From positions 1 to 39,659 of IMG/VR virus record IMGVR_UViG_3300035664_000034: a stretch of 39,659 nt of DNA. One strand, 5' to 3'. This document shows, piece by piece, positions 4,023-20,155 of this stretch. A program made the translations under genes and the position numbers. The first letter of the stretch is position 1, and the number at the start of each line of letters is the position of its first letter. This stretch comes from a virus. Below the pieces are notes generated by a model, which did not search any database, had not been told where the DNA came from, and saw nothing but the letters and a program-made list of their open reading frames with translations.

Positions 4023-4391
4023 TCAGTAGCCATAGTAGCCGTATGCCGGCGGACTGTAAACAGGTGCGCCGCCAAATGTCGAAACCACCGTCGTCCCGCC
4101 AACCCGTCCGGCTGTTGTGACGCCGCTTCCAGACGGAGCTACAATGAAGGCAGGCGGTGGCGCCGGTGCCATGGCTTGATTAAAAACCGTGGGGTCATAG
4201 CCGAAAGACGTTTCTGGTGTCGCCCAATTAACGCCGTCACCAAAGAAGGGCGTTCCCTTCGGAACCCAATCGCCTGCCGGGGTGCGAACGTAGCCCTTGG
4301 CCTGCATCTTTTCCGCCTTTTGTTGTGTTGTTTCGCAGCCCGTGGCGGCCATCACCATGGCGGCAGCGAGTGTTAGGGTTTGCAGTTTCAT
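4023..4391 (-). CDS. Small secreted lipoprotein coupled to integrase
   Basis: 122 residues. The N-terminus (MKLQTLTLAAAMVMAATGC) is a signal peptide with a lipobox A-T-G-C, so the mature protein should start at a lipidated Cys19 and sit in an envelope membrane. The rest holds a short charged helix, a Trp-containing segment, a Pro-rich middle and a Gly/Tyr-rich C-terminus. A longer frame exists upstream, but its signal peptide would be internal, so the start at 4391 is preferred. Its ATG overlaps the integrase TGA (ATGA at 4388-4391), so it is translated from the integrase message. This is typical of a lysogenic-conversion or superinfection-exclusion gene, but that role is inference; no family was recognised. 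Confidence 0.75.
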   Translation of the reverse strand: MKLQTLTLAAAMVMAATGCETTQQKAEKMQAKGYVRTPAGDWVPKGTPFFGDGVNWATPETSFGYDPTVFNQAMAPAPPPAFIVAPSGSGVTTAGRVGGTTVVSTFGGAPVYSPPAYGYYGY

Positions 4392-5563
4392 ATTGTTGGT
4401 TCTTCTTGAAATTTCTCTGGCACGACTACGGCACGTTGCCATGTGGCATACCAGCGTTGCGTTGTTACATAGGACGAGTGCCCCAAAAGATATTGCACTT
4501 GGACGAGTGACCCCGTCGCCTCCAGCCAATCGCTGCCGGCTTGCTTGCGCAGTTCATAGGCGGCGCCCTTGCGGTTCGGGATGTATTGCCGCAGCCATGT
4601 GTTGAAGTTTCGGAGCATGAAGTTGTAGCGAAGGAACTCTGTGCCGAGCGGGATCATGTAGTCTTCGGCAGCCAGCAGATAGTCGGCCATCCATGGCGCC
4701 AAGGTAATGTCGCGCTCGCGGCATCCCCCTGTCTTTAGGGTGAACTCCTCATCGGGGCGCTCGCGGATGCACATGGTCTTGCCTTCGGGGCGGTCCTCAA
4801 TCCACGACTTGCGGGCATAGCTTACCTCCTTGGGCGTCATGCCCATGTAGCGGCAGCAGATGAAGGCGCGGCGGACCTCTGCCATGCCCCGGCTGTCGCG
4901 CTCCATGTCGGCCAGCTTGTCCTTGGGGATGTGCTGGAAGCTGGTCGGGTTGTATTTCTGCTTGGCCTGCTTGCTGGCCGCGCGGAAGGAGGTGATGTCT
5001 GGCAGCTTGAAGTCGATCCAGTCGTTGCTGTCGGCGAAGACGCTCTTGGCACTGGCGAGGGTGCTGCCGGCCGTGTAGGCACTGGTTCCGCAGTTGGTAA
5101 GATATTCGCGCACCAGTTTGTCGTTCAATTCGGTGGAGCGGACGGCCATCACCTTGGCGACTTCGGCGTCCGTCATGGCAATAGCCCTCCCCTTAATCAT
5201 GGGGTGCTCTCGGAAGGGGGCGATGCCCTTGGCTCGGGCGATGACGCGCAACAGGCAACGAATGTTCTCCTCCTTGCTCGGGCAGTCGCTCCGCAAGCGG
5301 TAATGCTCGACGACCTTGCCGATGCTCGGAGACTCGTCGCGGCCATGGGTCAGCTCGGTAAGTCGCTTCATGCCATCTTGCCCAAGGATGTTGAGGTAAG
5401 ACAGCCCCTTGGCCTTGGCCACCTTGGGATCTGCTGTCTTGAGGGAGATGCGGCGCATCTTCTTCTCGTAGGTGTAACGCAGCCAAAGGTATCCCCGGCG
5501 TTGAAAGACTGTGCCTCTTAGCCCATACTTCGGGACTTCTATGCGGAAACTTTTAATGTTCAT
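4388..5563 (-). CDS. int: Tyrosine recombinase (phage integrase)
   Basis: 391 residues from the ATG at 5563, beginning MNIKSFRIEVPKYG. It catalyses site-specific recombination between attP and the host attB. The C-terminal half carries the beta-hairpin Lys (LKTGG, about residue 277), box II Arg (YELRK, about 339), the LLGHSS His (about 362) and the nucleophile in RWY (Tyr about 372). Two usual catalytic positions differ: the box I Arg is Thr in MGMTPKEV (about 243), and the His before x-L-R is Tyr. An N-terminal arm-binding region and core-binding domain precede the catalytic part. A TTGACA promoter lies just upstream and the attP site lies 130 bp upstream. An ATG at 5593 in the same frame is an alternative start, but it would lie inside the predicted promoter. 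Confidence 0.9.
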   Translation of the reverse strand: MNIKSFRIEVPKYGLRGTVFQRRGYLWLRYTYEKKMRRISLKTADPKVAKAKGLSYLNILGQDGMKRLTELTHGRDESPSIGKVVEHYRLRSDCPSKEENIRCLLRVIARAKGIAPFREHPMIKGRAIAMTDAEVAKVMAVRSTELNDKLVREYLTNCGTSAYTAGSTLASAKSVFADSNDWIDFKLPDITSFRAASKQAKQKYNPTSFQHIPKDKLADMERDSRGMAEVRRAFICCRYMGMTPKEVSYARKSWIEDRPEGKTMCIRERPDEEFTLKTGGCRERDITLAPWMADYLLAAEDYMIPLGTEFLRYNFMLRNFNTWLRQYIPNRKGAAYELRKQAGSDWLEATGSLVQVQYLLGHSSYVTTQRWYATWQRAVVVPEKFQEEPTI

Positions 5564-5573
5564 AACGAATCCA

Positions 5574-5602
5574 TTGCTAAACCGTCTGCCCATTGGTGTC
5601 AA
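5574..5602 (-). promoter_or_regulatory. Predicted integrase promoter
   Basis: On the minus strand a perfect TTGACA (5597-5602) is followed after 17 bp by TAGCAA (5574-5579), a weak -10. The integrase ATG follows the -10 by 10 nt, so the transcript would be leaderless or nearly so. The -35 box is part of one of the GGTGTCAA repeats that look like integrase arm sites, which would allow integrase to repress its own gene. Confidence 0.5.
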
Positions 5603-5809
5603 GATTGTGCATATCCGGTGTCAACAGGGCATGGTTCAACGTGGCATCAAACTGGTTCAAAGTAGTTCGTTTCTAGAGTAATCATTAACCTGCTCCCGTA
5701 GCTCAGGGGATAGAGCAGCGGATTTCTAAAGGGCCGTGCGTTTTGTGCGGCTTGCAGAATTACTCTGTAAATGTGCGGTTGTGTGCTGTTGTCACACGGA
5801 TGGTGTCAA
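5595..5809. other. attP: attP: tRNA-Arg(UCU) 5'-half core flanked by arm-type repeats
   Basis: 5692-5729 is a perfect 5' half of a tRNA gene. It has the acceptor strand GCTCCCG, TA, D arm GCTC-AGGGGATA-GAGC, one A, anticodon stem GCGGA and loop TTTCTAA, giving anticodon TCT (Arg). The next bases do not continue the stem, so the identity ends in the anticodon loop. GGTGTCAA occurs at 5595-5602, 5617-5624 and, beyond the core, 5802-5809. Related GGTTCAA or GGCATCAA copies at 5633, 5643 and 5654 are spaced near helical turns. Core plus arms on both sides next to the integrase gene is the layout of a lambda-like attP. That the host attB is a tRNA-Arg(UCU) gene is inference. Confidence 0.75.
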
Positions 5810-5840
5810 GGTGTGTGCTTTCGGTGGATCGGGCGGCCAT
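5760..5840 (-). CDS. Possible 26-residue peptide
   Basis: The ATG at 5838-5840 overlaps the TGA of the preceding gene (TGATG) and opens a 26-residue frame beginning MAARSTESTHLDTIRV and ending at TAA 5760-5762. The only support is coupling to the upstream stop and its use of the ATG inside a GTGATGGCCGCC repeat. It lies inside attP between the core and the P'-side arm repeat, so it could equally be non-coding. No function can be suggested. Confidence 0.25.
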   Translation of the reverse strand: MAARSTESTHLDTIRVTTAHNRTFTE

Positions 5841-6094
5841 CACTCGTTGATGTCTCGCTGCGTGACGATGTCGGTCTTGCCCCCGGCGTCCCGTTGCGCC
5901 CTCCCCACTTGGTCGTTGCCGCCCAAGCCTAGCCCATGCCACGGGTCATCGAGCTTGCGCAACTCGGCCATTAGCACATCGACCTTCCTGCCTGCGGCTC
6001 GGTGCTTGCGGATCTCCTCGACCAGCGCGGCCTTTAGCATCCGGCGCTCCTCGTCGTTGTCGCAGTATTGGGTTTCCATGGTCTCGGCGGCCAT
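5840..6094 (-). CDS. Small helical protein of unknown function
   Basis: 84 residues, beginning MAAETMETQYCDNDEERRM. The first half is charged and predicted helical (residues 10-50); the tail is Gly/Asp-rich. The start ATG is the one inside the repeat at 6086-6097, and an internal ATG (METQYC) at 6079 is an alternative. The stop overlaps the next repeat copy at 5832-5843. It is the last well-supported gene of the leftward block before attP. A long hairpin lies between it and the gene upstream. I do not recognise the family. Confidence 0.6.
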   Translation of the reverse strand: MAAETMETQYCDNDEERRMLKAALVEEIRKHRAAGRKVDVLMAELRKLDDPWHGLGLGGNDQVGRAQRDAGGKTDIVTQRDINE

Positions 6095-6107
6095 CACTTG
6101 CCGGCTG

Positions 6108-6136
6108 AAGGGAGAGGGCGATTTGCCCCCTCCCTT
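6108..6136. terminator. 12-bp hairpin inside the leftward operon
   Basis: The arms 6108-6119 and 6125-6136 pair over 12 positions with one A/C mismatch around a 5-nt loop (AAGGGAGAGGGC against GCCCCCTCCCTT). It lies in the 57-bp gap between two leftward genes. No T-run follows in either direction, so it may be an attenuator, a processing site or a partial terminator. Confidence 0.4.
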
Positions 6137-6151
6137 GTGAGCGGCGTGTGT

Positions 6152-6550
6152 TTAGGCGGGCATCTCGACGGCCATTTCTATTGCGGCCTGCGACATCCGT
6201 ATGGCATCGGCGGCTTGGTGCAACGCTTCAGCCTCAGTCTTGCAGCGACCGGCCCAATGGGTGTCGAGCGAGGGGTAGTCCACCAGCGCATAGGCAAACG
6301 AGCGGCCCCGCTTGAGGGTCCACACGTCCGTATATGGCTCGGTGCATAGTCCTCCGGTCGTCCAGAGGGTCCACATTTTGGCGCCCTTGGGCGGCCGCCA
6401 TTTGGTGAACACAACTTTCTTGCCCTCCCTGTGGACAAGCTCAGTTGACTCCGGTTCCTCGCGCACTGCGATGAATGCGCCCGCAAATCGGGCGGCCTTG
6501 GCGTTGATCCCGCGCTCGGCTAGGTAGTGTTTTGCAGTCATGGCGGCCAT
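6152..6550 (-). CDS. Unknown phage protein
   Basis: 132 residues beginning MAAMTAKHYLAERG. The start ATG (6548-6550) shares its first base with the TGA of the upstream gene (TGATG), which implies coupled translation; a second in-frame ATG at 6541 is also possible. The sequence has a Trp-rich centre (KWRPPKGAKMWTLWTTGG, residues about 52-69) and a helical C-terminus with ADAIRMSQAAIEMAVEMPA. It has no signal peptide or membrane segment, so it is likely cytoplasmic. I do not recognise it. Confidence 0.65.
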   Translation of the reverse strand: MAAMTAKHYLAERGINAKAARFAGAFIAVREEPESTELVHREGKKVVFTKWRPPKGAKMWTLWTTGGLCTEPYTDVWTLKRGRSFAYALVDYPSLDTHWAGRCKTEAEALHQAADAIRMSQAAIEMAVEMPA

Positions 6551-6759
6551 CACTGGACCGGCTCAAAGTCCGCGTAGTCATCAAGAAACGCGGCCACGTT
6601 AGCCAAGGTTGGTTTGCGTTGTTCCTCGGGCAGCTCATGCCAAGAGTCGTGCCGTTCGCACTCCTCAAGCCATGCGCCGAATGATTTTGTTACGCGCCCA
6701 CCGGGGAAGCGCATGCGCGCGCTGAAATGATCCAGCGTGTGCGGTGTATCGTTTTTCAT
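6550..6759 (-). CDS. Small unknown protein, strong RBS cassette
   Basis: 69 residues, beginning MKNDTPHTLDHFSARMRF. The ATG at 6759 is chosen over an upstream start because the shared AAAGGAGACACACA cassette sits exactly before it (6760-6773). The protein is acidic toward the C-terminus (AAFLDDYADFEPVQ) and has a Trp/His-rich centre (ECERHDSWHELPEEQR). Its stop is fused to the next gene by TGATG inside a repeat copy. Likely cytoplasmic. Function unknown. Confidence 0.65.
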   Translation of the reverse strand: MKNDTPHTLDHFSARMRFPGGRVTKSFGAWLEECERHDSWHELPEEQRKPTLANVAAFLDDYADFEPVQ

Positions 6760-6824
6760 TGTGTGTCTCCTTTGTTTCAATAGATGGTGCGGCCATCACC
6801 GGGTCAGCATGTTTGCCGTCCGTT

Positions 6825-6853
6825 CCGGCCTCTGCCCATTGGACAAAGGCCGG
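6825..6853. repeat. 7-bp inverted repeat in a 103-bp gap
   Basis: CCGGCCT (6825-6831) and AGGCCGG (6847-6853) are exact inverted copies around a 15-nt loop. They sit between two leftward genes, just after the stop of the upstream one, and could end or attenuate transcription. The gap also carries one GTGATGGCCGCA repeat copy (6788-6799). Confidence 0.35.
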
Positions 6854-6862
6854 TGTCGGGCG

Positions 6863-7222
6863 TCAAGCGGCGTTGGCTAGTTTCTGTGTCTTAGGCTTGG
6901 CCTTCTTCTGTTTGGCTAGGCGCTTCTCGTCTTGCTTGCGCCAATACTCCTCACGGAGCCGCTTCCTTTCTGCGAGGATTTCGCAGCGCAGGGCGCAGGC
7001 GGTTAGCTCCATGTCTTCGTCGTGGCAGTTCTCAAACTCCTCCCACGCGCCATACGCTCTATTGATTGCCGCATCTAGGTCGGGGCATTCCGGCGCGTCA
7101 TGGCTCGCTTGGTAGTCCTCAATGCGAGCAATGAGCTTTAGCATCTCGCTATGAAGGTCTAATGACGCACGGAAATGCCCATAGAGGCGGCCGTATTGTT
7201 GTTCGATTGTTTGCTTTTTCAT
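6863..7222 (-). CDS. Charged coiled-coil-like protein of unknown function
   Basis: 119 residues starting MKKQTIEQQYGRLYG, preceded by AAGGAGACACCA (7223-7234). The N-terminal half is helical with an acidic, Cys-containing centre (APECPDLDAAIN, ENCHDEDMELTACALRCE). The C-terminal third is strongly basic (KRLREEYWRKQDEKRLAKQKKAKPK), consistent with nucleic-acid contact. No domain was recognised. It is transcribed between the ANARLIATAPELL-family gene and a 69-residue gene. Confidence 0.7.
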   Translation of the reverse strand: MKKQTIEQQYGRLYGHFRASLDLHSEMLKLIARIEDYQASHDAPECPDLDAAINRAYGAWEEFENCHDEDMELTACALRCEILAERKRLREEYWRKQDEKRLAKQKKAKPKTQKLANAA

Positions 7223-7247
7223 TGGTGTCTCCTTCTGTTTGTTTTGG

Positions 7248-7583
7248 TTAGGCGGCCATCACTGGCTCGCCAATAGCTTTTTCGATTGTTGCAGCGAGGG
7301 TGCCATCTATTGAAGCGGCGTTCGCTTCCACCCAATCACAGGCGGCGTCGAGCCGCCGGAATTGAATCAACCCGCATAGCTCATCGAGCCATTCGCGGGC
7401 GTTGCATAGTTCTTCCAGTAGTTCGGGCGCGGTTGCGATCAGTCGCGCGTTTGCTTGGTCTATCTTTCCATCTGGCAAGGCGCAGATGTCGCTTGCGTTA
7501 TCAAGCCGGAAGGCTTTTATGGCTATTAAGTCTGGCTCTTGCTCTATGCGCCAAGGCGCGGGCGTGTGTTTTATTGTGTTCAT
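7248..7583 (-). CDS. Conserved phage protein, ANARLIA-APELL family
   Basis: 111 residues with the hallmark HTPAPW near the N-terminus and ANARLIATAPELLEEL in the middle. This pattern is seen in a widespread family of small phage early-region proteins whose function is not known to me. It starts at 7583 behind the AAAGGAGACACAC cassette (7584-7596). The reading frame ends through a copy of the GTGATGGCCGCC repeat, so the C-terminus reads PVMAA. Likely cytoplasmic. Confidence 0.75.
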   Translation of the reverse strand: MNTIKHTPAPWRIEQEPDLIAIKAFRLDNASDICALPDGKIDQANARLIATAPELLEELCNAREWLDELCGLIQFRRLDAACDWVEANAASIDGTLAATIEKAIGEPVMAA

Positions 7584-7680
7584 GTGTGTCTCCTTTGTAT
7601 GTGTTTGGCGGCCATCATCGGCCGGGATTGCGTTATGCTCTCCGTGCTGGCCCCGGTGTTAGCGGGACCAGATGCGGAAC

Positions 7681-7827
7681 TCATGCGCGCGTTAGCCATT
7701 CTCTGATCCTCGCGGCCATCACTGCCCACCATGGCGGGACGGTTTCGGTGCGTTTGGCGGCCATCACTTGCCAGTATCTTTGCCAGTTGACCATGGGCCG
7801 GTCGTGTGTGTGGTCTCCGGTGGTCAT
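7681..7827 (-). CDS. 48-residue Trp-rich peptide with an internal duplication
   Basis: The ATG at 7827 has AGGAGG seven bases upstream and overlaps the TGA of the gene before it (ATGA, 7824-7827). The protein contains two similar segments, WQVMAAKR and WAVMAARI, each made by an in-frame copy of the GTGATGGCCGCC repeat, and five Trp residues in its last 35 positions. It may be a small amphipathic peptide. No family recognised. Confidence 0.55.
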   Translation of the reverse strand: MTTGDHTHDRPMVNWQRYWQVMAAKRTETVPPWWAVMAARIREWLTRA

Positions 7828-9957: not shown

Positions 9958-10053
9958 AACGTGTGAAGAATCGTGCGGTTTGCACACAAGCGCAAGAAAA
10001 AAAGAGCGTAGTGGGTCAACTTTTTTCGTTTTACTCTGTAAAATTAACGAAGA

Positions 10054-10069
10054 TTAAACGGTCGTTTAA
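10054..10069. promoter_or_regulatory. Palindrome TTAAACG-GT-CGTTTAA
   Basis: Seven-base arms (10054-10060 and 10063-10069) separated by two bases form a perfect dyad. It overlaps the end of the ribbon-helix-helix gene (TAA at 10066-10068) and lies about 100 bp upstream of the first gene of the leftward block. It could be an operator for the neighbouring regulator or a short terminator. Confidence 0.4.
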
Positions 10070-10377
10070 GCCTTTCTCGGATACGCCACAGCTTTCCGGC
10101 CCGTTGACAAATGGCCGGTGCTCGGTTGCTCTACCGCCTCACGGACACGGCCGGACATGGCTCTCGCTTGGGCGAGAATCGCGTCCCGTTCTAGGCTACT
10201 CAGTAACCGATTCCCCGCCGCCGCGTAAAGCGCAAGGTAGATTGCTACCGCCTCCCTGATCGCGTCCGACATGCCTATGCCCTCAGATTGGCACAGCCGA
10301 TCAACGGCCGCGCGCATGTCCTCCGTTACTCTTGTATTCACGGCGATGTCATTCGCCTGCTTTGTCTGCTTTTTCAT
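10066..10377 (-). CDS. Ribbon-helix-helix (CopG/Arc-like) regulator
   Basis: 103 residues from ATG 10377, beginning MKKQTKQANDIAVNTRV. The segment VNTRVTEDMRAAVDRL, followed by GIGMSDAIREAVAIYL (about residues 13-46), fits the RHH fold: a beta strand for DNA contact and two helices for dimerisation. A basic, flexible tail follows. It faces the rightward helix-turn-helix gene across a 122-bp gap that contains the rightward promoter, so it is a good candidate for the lysogeny repressor in the absence of a CI-like protein. Earlier in-frame start candidates lack a ribosome-binding site. Confidence 0.75.
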   Translation of the reverse strand: MKKQTKQANDIAVNTRVTEDMRAAVDRLCQSEGIGMSDAIREAVAIYLALYAAAGNRLLSSLERDAILAQARAMSGRVREAVEQPSTGHLSTGRKAVAYPRKA

Positions 10378-10461
10378 AACGAGCAAACAAGAGCACACAC
10401 ACCGGACCCGCGCAAAGGAAATCGGCCTAGGTGTTCACCCCATATTGCCCAAGATTGACTG

Positions 10462-19450: not shown

Positions 19451-19659
19451 TCGCCTTCTTCCCCGACCGCGAGCGCGTCTACGTCAAAGGCAAGGACGCC
19501 CCCTGCCGCACGCTCGTCTACTGCAAAAACGGCGGCGGCGAGAACGACTACGTCACCGTCATCCGCGAAGACAACGGCGAATGGCTCACCGTGCGCATCG
19601 ACCAGATCGTCAGTGCGCCGAATCCGACTTTGGATATTGAAGGCTCTTTAGACGCCTAA
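19447..19659 (+). CDS. Small beta-rich protein, unknown
   Basis: 70 residues starting MIAFFPDRERVYVKGKDAP. Alternating hydrophobic residues (RVYVKG, RTLVYCKN, YVTVIRED, WLTVRIDQIV) suggest a small beta barrel or SH3-like fold. The start is coupled to the upstream stop. It is the last gene before a G-poor spacer with two GCACACA motifs (19663-19684). Function unknown. Confidence 0.6.
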   Translation: MIAFFPDRERVYVKGKDAPCRTLVYCKNGGGENDYVTVIREDNGEWLTVRIDQIVSAPNPTLDIEGSLDA

Positions 19660-19684
19660 ACAGCACACAACCGCACACACCCGC

Positions 19685-20155
19685 ATGAAATCCGACCAGC
19701 AATTCCTCGGCGACTTAAGCGCCAGCCGGAAGGCGGTCAACGATTTTGCTGACCTTTTGCGTCAGACCGGCATGCAAGTCTGGCTACCGCCGCAGCGCAC
19801 CCGCCCCGATGCGACTGTGCGCGAGCAATACGCCGACAGCGGGGACTTGATGGTGCAAGGCCGCGTCGAGCACAAGGTCCGCACCAACCTGCATTTCACC
19901 AGCCGCGAGGATTATCCGTATCCCACCGTCATCGTGGACGAGGCTTACAAGGTAGATGCCAAAGCCGACACGCCGGTCTTGGCCTATGTTATCGAAAACG
20001 CCACCCGCACCGTGGCCGCCGTCGTCTATGGCTGGACCCGCAAGCACTGGCAGGTCGAAGAAGTCTACGACCCCAAGCAAGGCCGCCGCTGCCGCAACTA
20101 TACGGTTCCGAAGCAGCATGTGCGGTTCTGCGAACCAGCGGAGGCATTCGCATGA
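19685..20155 (+). CDS. PD-(D/E)XK-like nuclease, unknown role
   Basis: 156 residues. GDLMV (Asp54) followed by RVEHKVR (Glu62-x-Lys64) fits the PD-(D/E)XK active site, and the helix before it (NDFADLLRQTG) is typical of the fold. It lies just upstream of the terminase genes, where a small terminase would be expected, but has no helix-turn-helix. It might trim or nick DNA during packaging or degrade host DNA. The leader is CA-rich with no Shine-Dalgarno. Confidence 0.6.
   Translation: MKSDQQFLGDLSASRKAVNDFADLLRQTGMQVWLPPQRTRPDATVREQYADSGDLMVQGRVEHKVRTNLHFTSREDYPYPTVIVDEAYKVDAKADTPVLAYVIENATRTVAAVVYGWTRKHWQVEEVYDPKQGRRCRNYTVPKQHVRFCEPAEAFA

Follow-up and report, generated by a model that had tools for sequence, protein, structure and literature searches.

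A phage attachment site that probably supplies the 5′ half of a tRNA-Arg(UCU) gene in Chthoniobacterales-like Verrucomicrobiota

Does a short region of the IMG/VR virus record IMGVR_UViG_3300035664_000034 (positions 5595–5809; the whole 39 659 bp analysed are hereafter called the window) act as a phage attachment site (attP) that delivers the 5′ half of a host tRNA gene, and if so, how would that tRNA be transcribed once it lies behind phage DNA? A reading made from the sequence only had proposed such a site, remarking that most tRNA-targeting elements carry the 3′ part of their target; this agrees with the Islander collection, in which 3760 islands have 3′ fragments and 159 have 5′ fragments (159/3919; PMC4383910). 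Our analysis indicates that the region is very probably the attP of a temperate phage whose hosts are Chthoniobacterales-like Verrucomicrobiota, and that the phage integrase recombines with the host tRNA-Arg(UCU) gene, such that the phage 5′ half and the host 3′ half form a chimeric tRNA behind phage DNA. In a relative (L018) the two ends of the window sequence lie ∼38 bp apart; we therefore take the window to represent almost the entire phage genome in circularly permuted form, and 5595–5809 to be an attP that is uninterrupted, not the end of a prophage.

The common core of this site (5692–5729, + strand) represents the 5′ half (nt 1–38) of tRNA-Arg(UCU), and is identical to the first 38 nt of the host tRNA-Arg(tct) genes called by ARAGORN in L003 and L004, as well as being present without mismatch in 13 other viral contigs. 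When 257 Gb of sequence in the genome_contigs collection was scanned, exact matches to this 38-mer occurred in two places, belonging to two Chthoniobacterales (Verrucomicrobiota) genomes and in each case situated inside a tRNA-Arg(UCU) gene. As the 38-mer is confined to these two tRNA-Arg loci, a chance match is excluded, and a host tRNA of the kind sought by the sequence-only reading does exist. Also borne out was its claim that the match ends at the anticodon loop: host identity stops directly after TTTCTAA (5723–5729, + strand), where the phage continues with AGGGCC and the host with TCCGTT. By analogy with known integrases that use the anticodon subsite, this loop, lying at the right-hand end of host identity, is presumed to be the 7 bp overlap for strand exchange. 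No complete tRNA gene was found in the window, Rfam returned no match, and a collection of annotated phages contained no match to either the attP region or the integrase.

Alongside the core lies int (4388–5563, − strand), which specifies a tyrosine recombinase of the integrase family. This assignment derives from a PHROG integrase match (1.2e-11) and from alignment with related integrases, together with a Pfam Phage_integrase match (0.0019) that is below the cut-off. The open reading frame (ORF) extends to 5602 at most, and the core starts at 5692, placing attP outside int. An AlphaFold model of the protein had a mean confidence score (pLDDT) of 51, and was too poor for use.

To what extent is this half tRNA shared by other phages? 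A scan in which the variable stem bases were left free revealed 18 other viral contigs carrying a host-matching 38 nt half, and wherever int was read among these, it encoded a related tyrosine integrase. By integrase identity to that of the window, these phages fall into three groups: A (91–97 %), B (62 %) and C (∼40 %). The flanking arms differ among the three, with those of group C being distinct, whilst the side of the core on which int is found, and its direction of transcription (away from the core), are constant among the members examined. That three groups with related integrases share the half whilst their arms differ supports its role as an attachment core. At several group C sites we also observed that the sequence to the right of the anticodon loop (TCTTTGCTCTACCCC) mirrors that to its left (GGGGATAGAGCAGCGGA), forming a dyad centred on the loop; in L011 (7791–7870), the similarity between the right flank and the reverse-complemented tRNA half was equalled by 8 of 5000 shuffles. 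This core palindrome was not relied upon, as another group C site, L014, fell below significance, and groups A and B have no such symmetry.

Integration itself was observed in a relative, IMGVR_UViG_2737471655_000001 (L005), whose integrase is 97 % identical to that of the window. Here, a group A left arm is followed by the 38-mer and then directly by TCCGTTGGTCGGAAGTTCGAATCTTCCCGGGAGCG, the host 3′ half, yielding a complete tRNA-Arg(tct). By comparison, in unintegrated group A sites the core is followed by an invariant AGGGCCGTGC (5730–5739, + strand, in the window), the presumed right-hand core flank of attP. The gene behind the rebuilt tRNA, which reads as a Kef-type antiporter, is the same as that behind the intact tRNA of host locus L048, with tblastx segments of 83–93 % identity. 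Nine genomes of the order share conserved host DNA upstream of the intact tRNA; in L005, phage DNA stands in its place. As the order in L005 is left arm, 38-mer, host 3′ half and host gene, phage DNA precedes the rebuilt tRNA, which owes its 5′ half to the phage. Accordingly, the predictions that the phage would provide the 5′ half, with the whole tRNA coming to lie downstream of phage DNA, and that a related prophage would end at this tRNA, were both seen to hold at this one junction.

The phage halves exist as three alleles, differing at acceptor position 3 and at anticodon-stem positions 28–29, and every one of them equals an existing host tRNA allele whose 3′ half pairs with it; the G3 allele was found in groups A, B and C (L020, L023, L060 and L062). 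Position 3 is ∼30 bp from the presumed overlap, a considerable distance, and identity starts with the very first base of the tRNA; this matching is hence most probably due to selection for a functional chimeric tRNA, with homologous exchange in lysogens as an alternative. Of 13 genomes of the order searched for TCT-type tRNAs, 12 gave a single match each, and the target is thus probably the sole tRNA reading AGA.

What, then, might drive the rebuilt gene? In six of eight host loci (L003, L004, L044, L045, L048 and L050), a sigma-70-like promoter (TCGACA or TAGACA, a 17–18 nt spacer and a TAATCT-like element) ends 11–14 nt upstream of the intact tRNA, and was matched by at most 1.7 % of shuffles; no such promoter was found at the intact loci L042 and L047. 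Integration should carry this host promoter to the other junction. As int and the next ORF are both on the − strand and point away from the tRNA, a transcription start between int and the tRNA is to be expected. For this the sequence-only reading had put forward TTCAAA (5656) with TAATCA (5679); both elements are present, but the best promoter-like hit in the left arm of the window, which is built on this TTCAAA, was matched by 28 % of shuffles, and we rejected the pair as chance. A better candidate would be TAGAGTAA (5674–5681), held within TTTCTAGAGTAAT (5670–5682, + strand), which is invariant in group A even though identity between left arms falls as low as 59 %. Between its TAGAGT and the tRNA start are 12 nt, a spacing much like that of the host promoter, and no clear −35 element lies alongside. 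On the basis of these observations, we suggest that recombination by the tyrosine integrase takes place between attP and the host tRNA-Arg(UCU) gene, with the anticodon loop as the presumed exchange site. The host promoter would then accompany the 5′ fragment that is displaced to the other junction. As for the rebuilt gene, apparently the sole source of tRNA-Arg(UCU), transcription would start within the ∼120 bp separating it from int, with TAGAGTAA perhaps serving as the −10 element.

Several observations weigh against this interpretation. The integrated state is known from a single copy, that of the relative L005 rather than of the window phage itself. The opposite junction (host promoter, 5′ fragment and phage right arm) was not found in the searched collections, the L005 contig stopping before that end; right-arm sequence used as a query for it returned unintegrated sites only, and searches of 197 and 213 GTDB genomes of the order for integrated copies gave no close integrase relative, the best being 32 % identical. 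Additionally, whilst conserved R, K, H and Y motifs are present in the integrase alignment, the canonical catalytic Arg-I position is occupied by Thr in the group A and B integrases (10 sequences; residue 245 of the 394 aa translation P0001 in the window), the region reading MGMTPKE in these groups versus LGLRPSE, with the canonical Arg, in group C and more distant relatives. In groups A and B a Tyr also replaces the box-II His (YELRKQ). A Thr at Arg-I would normally cast doubt on integrase activity, although L005, a group A relative, sits integrated. Finally, no sigma-70 promoter above chance was detected in the phage left arms (14 tested; ≥ 12 % of shuffles equalled the best hit). Separately, we considered a link between int and rare codons, which was dismissed as the counts are unremarkable (one AGA and one AGG in 392 codons).

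Left arms in which no promoter exceeds chance also lend themselves to other explanations. The 38 bp could be recombination homology only, with the rebuilt tRNA silent in the lysogen and another arginine tRNA used in its stead; we consider this improbable, given that identity runs from the first tRNA base and follows the host alleles at position 3, well removed from the presumed overlap, and that a single TCT-type match was obtained in 12 of the 13 genomes. Alternatively, the rebuilt tRNA may be expressed by read-through from deeper in the prophage rather than from a left-arm promoter. A promoter-like site inside int (5501–5529, + strand; 0.3 expected in shuffles) fits this scenario, but because int and the ORF beyond it are on the − strand, such a transcript would need to run through int in the antisense direction, and we view the explanation as rather unlikely. 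The absence of a complete tRNA gene from the window might further suggest that the 38 bp are a decaying relic of a former prophage junction or of a tRNA-fragment gene, rather than a working attP core. This is extremely improbable in light of the exact host identity, the neighbouring int gene, the recurrence of this half in 18 other contigs, the integrated relative joined precisely at this core and, from the proximity of the window ends in L018, a location internal to a circularly permuted genome. We thus favour a functional attP that gives the host tRNA its 5′ half. It is also conceivable, if rather doubtful, that the host's only tRNA-Arg(UCU) comes under a phage-controlled promoter (TAGAGTAA and its inverted partner), drawing AGA decoding into a phage regulatory circuit and diverting the host tRNA promoter antisense into the leftward genes of the prophage.

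How does this site compare with known systems? It belongs to a rare, already described 5′ type, of which it is a further example, supported at one junction. As in the 5′-fragment islands of Islander (PMC4383910), there is an integrase of the tyrosine family within the element, a tRNA target whose 5′ part is found in attP, an anticodon subsite and a complete tRNA at one junction (L005), with a displaced 5′ fragment expected opposite; by comparison with those islands, the present case concerns one Verrucomicrobiota phage group with three arm architectures on one tRNA. Archaeal pTN3-like integrases likewise use a tRNA 5′ half as core and part the rebuilt tRNA from its original promoter, a separation that a review on these integrases describes as seldom encountered in bacteria (PMC5495485, PMC8371274). 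In pTN3, however, attP is part of int itself; integration splits this gene, and the int promoter drives the tRNA (PMC5495485, PMC8371274), whereas here attP is outside int, and int stays whole and points away. Mycobacteriophages with tRNA-dependent lysogeny, such as Fionnbharth, resemble our phage in that the function of the disrupted tRNA in the lysogen depends on phage DNA, but have a ∼10 bp core and a complete phage tRNA gene (PMC10865867); in the present case a 38 bp core is combined with tRNA reconstruction (L005), and the window has no complete tRNA gene. The common 3′-half integrators share the tyrosine integrase, a similar core length (30–45 bp in mycobacteriophages; PMC10865867) ending at the anticodon loop, and a tRNA rebuilt at one junction. 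With these, the element contributes the 3′ half and the host promoter keeps its position, the reverse of what this phage does. Cutting an apparently single-copy tRNA from its promoter is uncommon, 5′-type cases comprising ∼4 % of Islander's mapped tRNA islands, and here a single tRNA is the repeated target of related phages, which have three arm architectures between them and tRNA alleles that match those of hosts. Such a set of phages provides a natural experiment on how a tRNA supplied by a prophage is kept functional, and on a possible limitation of phage host range by tRNA alleles.

The arms of attP contain repeats that fit, and may represent, integrase arm sites. The three exact copies of GGTGTCAA previously noted at 5595–5602, 5617–5624 and 5802–5809 (all + strand) were recovered, and in relatives they lie −95/−96, −73 and +112/113 from the tRNA start, bar some end-base changes. 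The position of the first is kept in group A; within the second, GTGTCA is kept at −73 in all group A members and also occurs in group B left arms; and for the third, in the right arm, TGGTGTCAA is invariant in unintegrated group A sites. The window contains five copies of GGTGTCAA versus 1.04 expected, a number reached by 0 of 100 shuffles. The supposed weaker copies at 5633, 5643 and 5654 did not hold up, proving instead to be ∼10–11 bp repetition of the TGGTTCAA type that is out of register in L013 and L059.

A further motif, TTTAYAGAGTAAW, occurs three times with up to two mismatches (0.28 expected), at 5670–5682 (+), 5759–5771 (−) and 10030–10042 (−), and its copies are kept at corresponding places in group A. 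The second of these, TTTACAGAGTAAT, is the inverted partner of the left-arm motif; it does not vary among unintegrated group A sites and also occurs in group B, whilst the third adjoins a TTAAACGACCGTTTAA palindrome near the end of a 110 aa ORF (10066–10398). Such a motif is possibly an operator or a phage promoter element. In addition, a 19 bp exact repeat (5772–5790 and 19659–19677, the latter on the − strand) joins the attP right arm to the region before the ORF at 19685. Lastly, GCGGCCATCAC is found eight times in 4345–7767 versus 0.05 expected, and most copies lie where a small leftward gene begins; on the − strand it reads GTGATGGCCGC, a repeated gene-start sequence.
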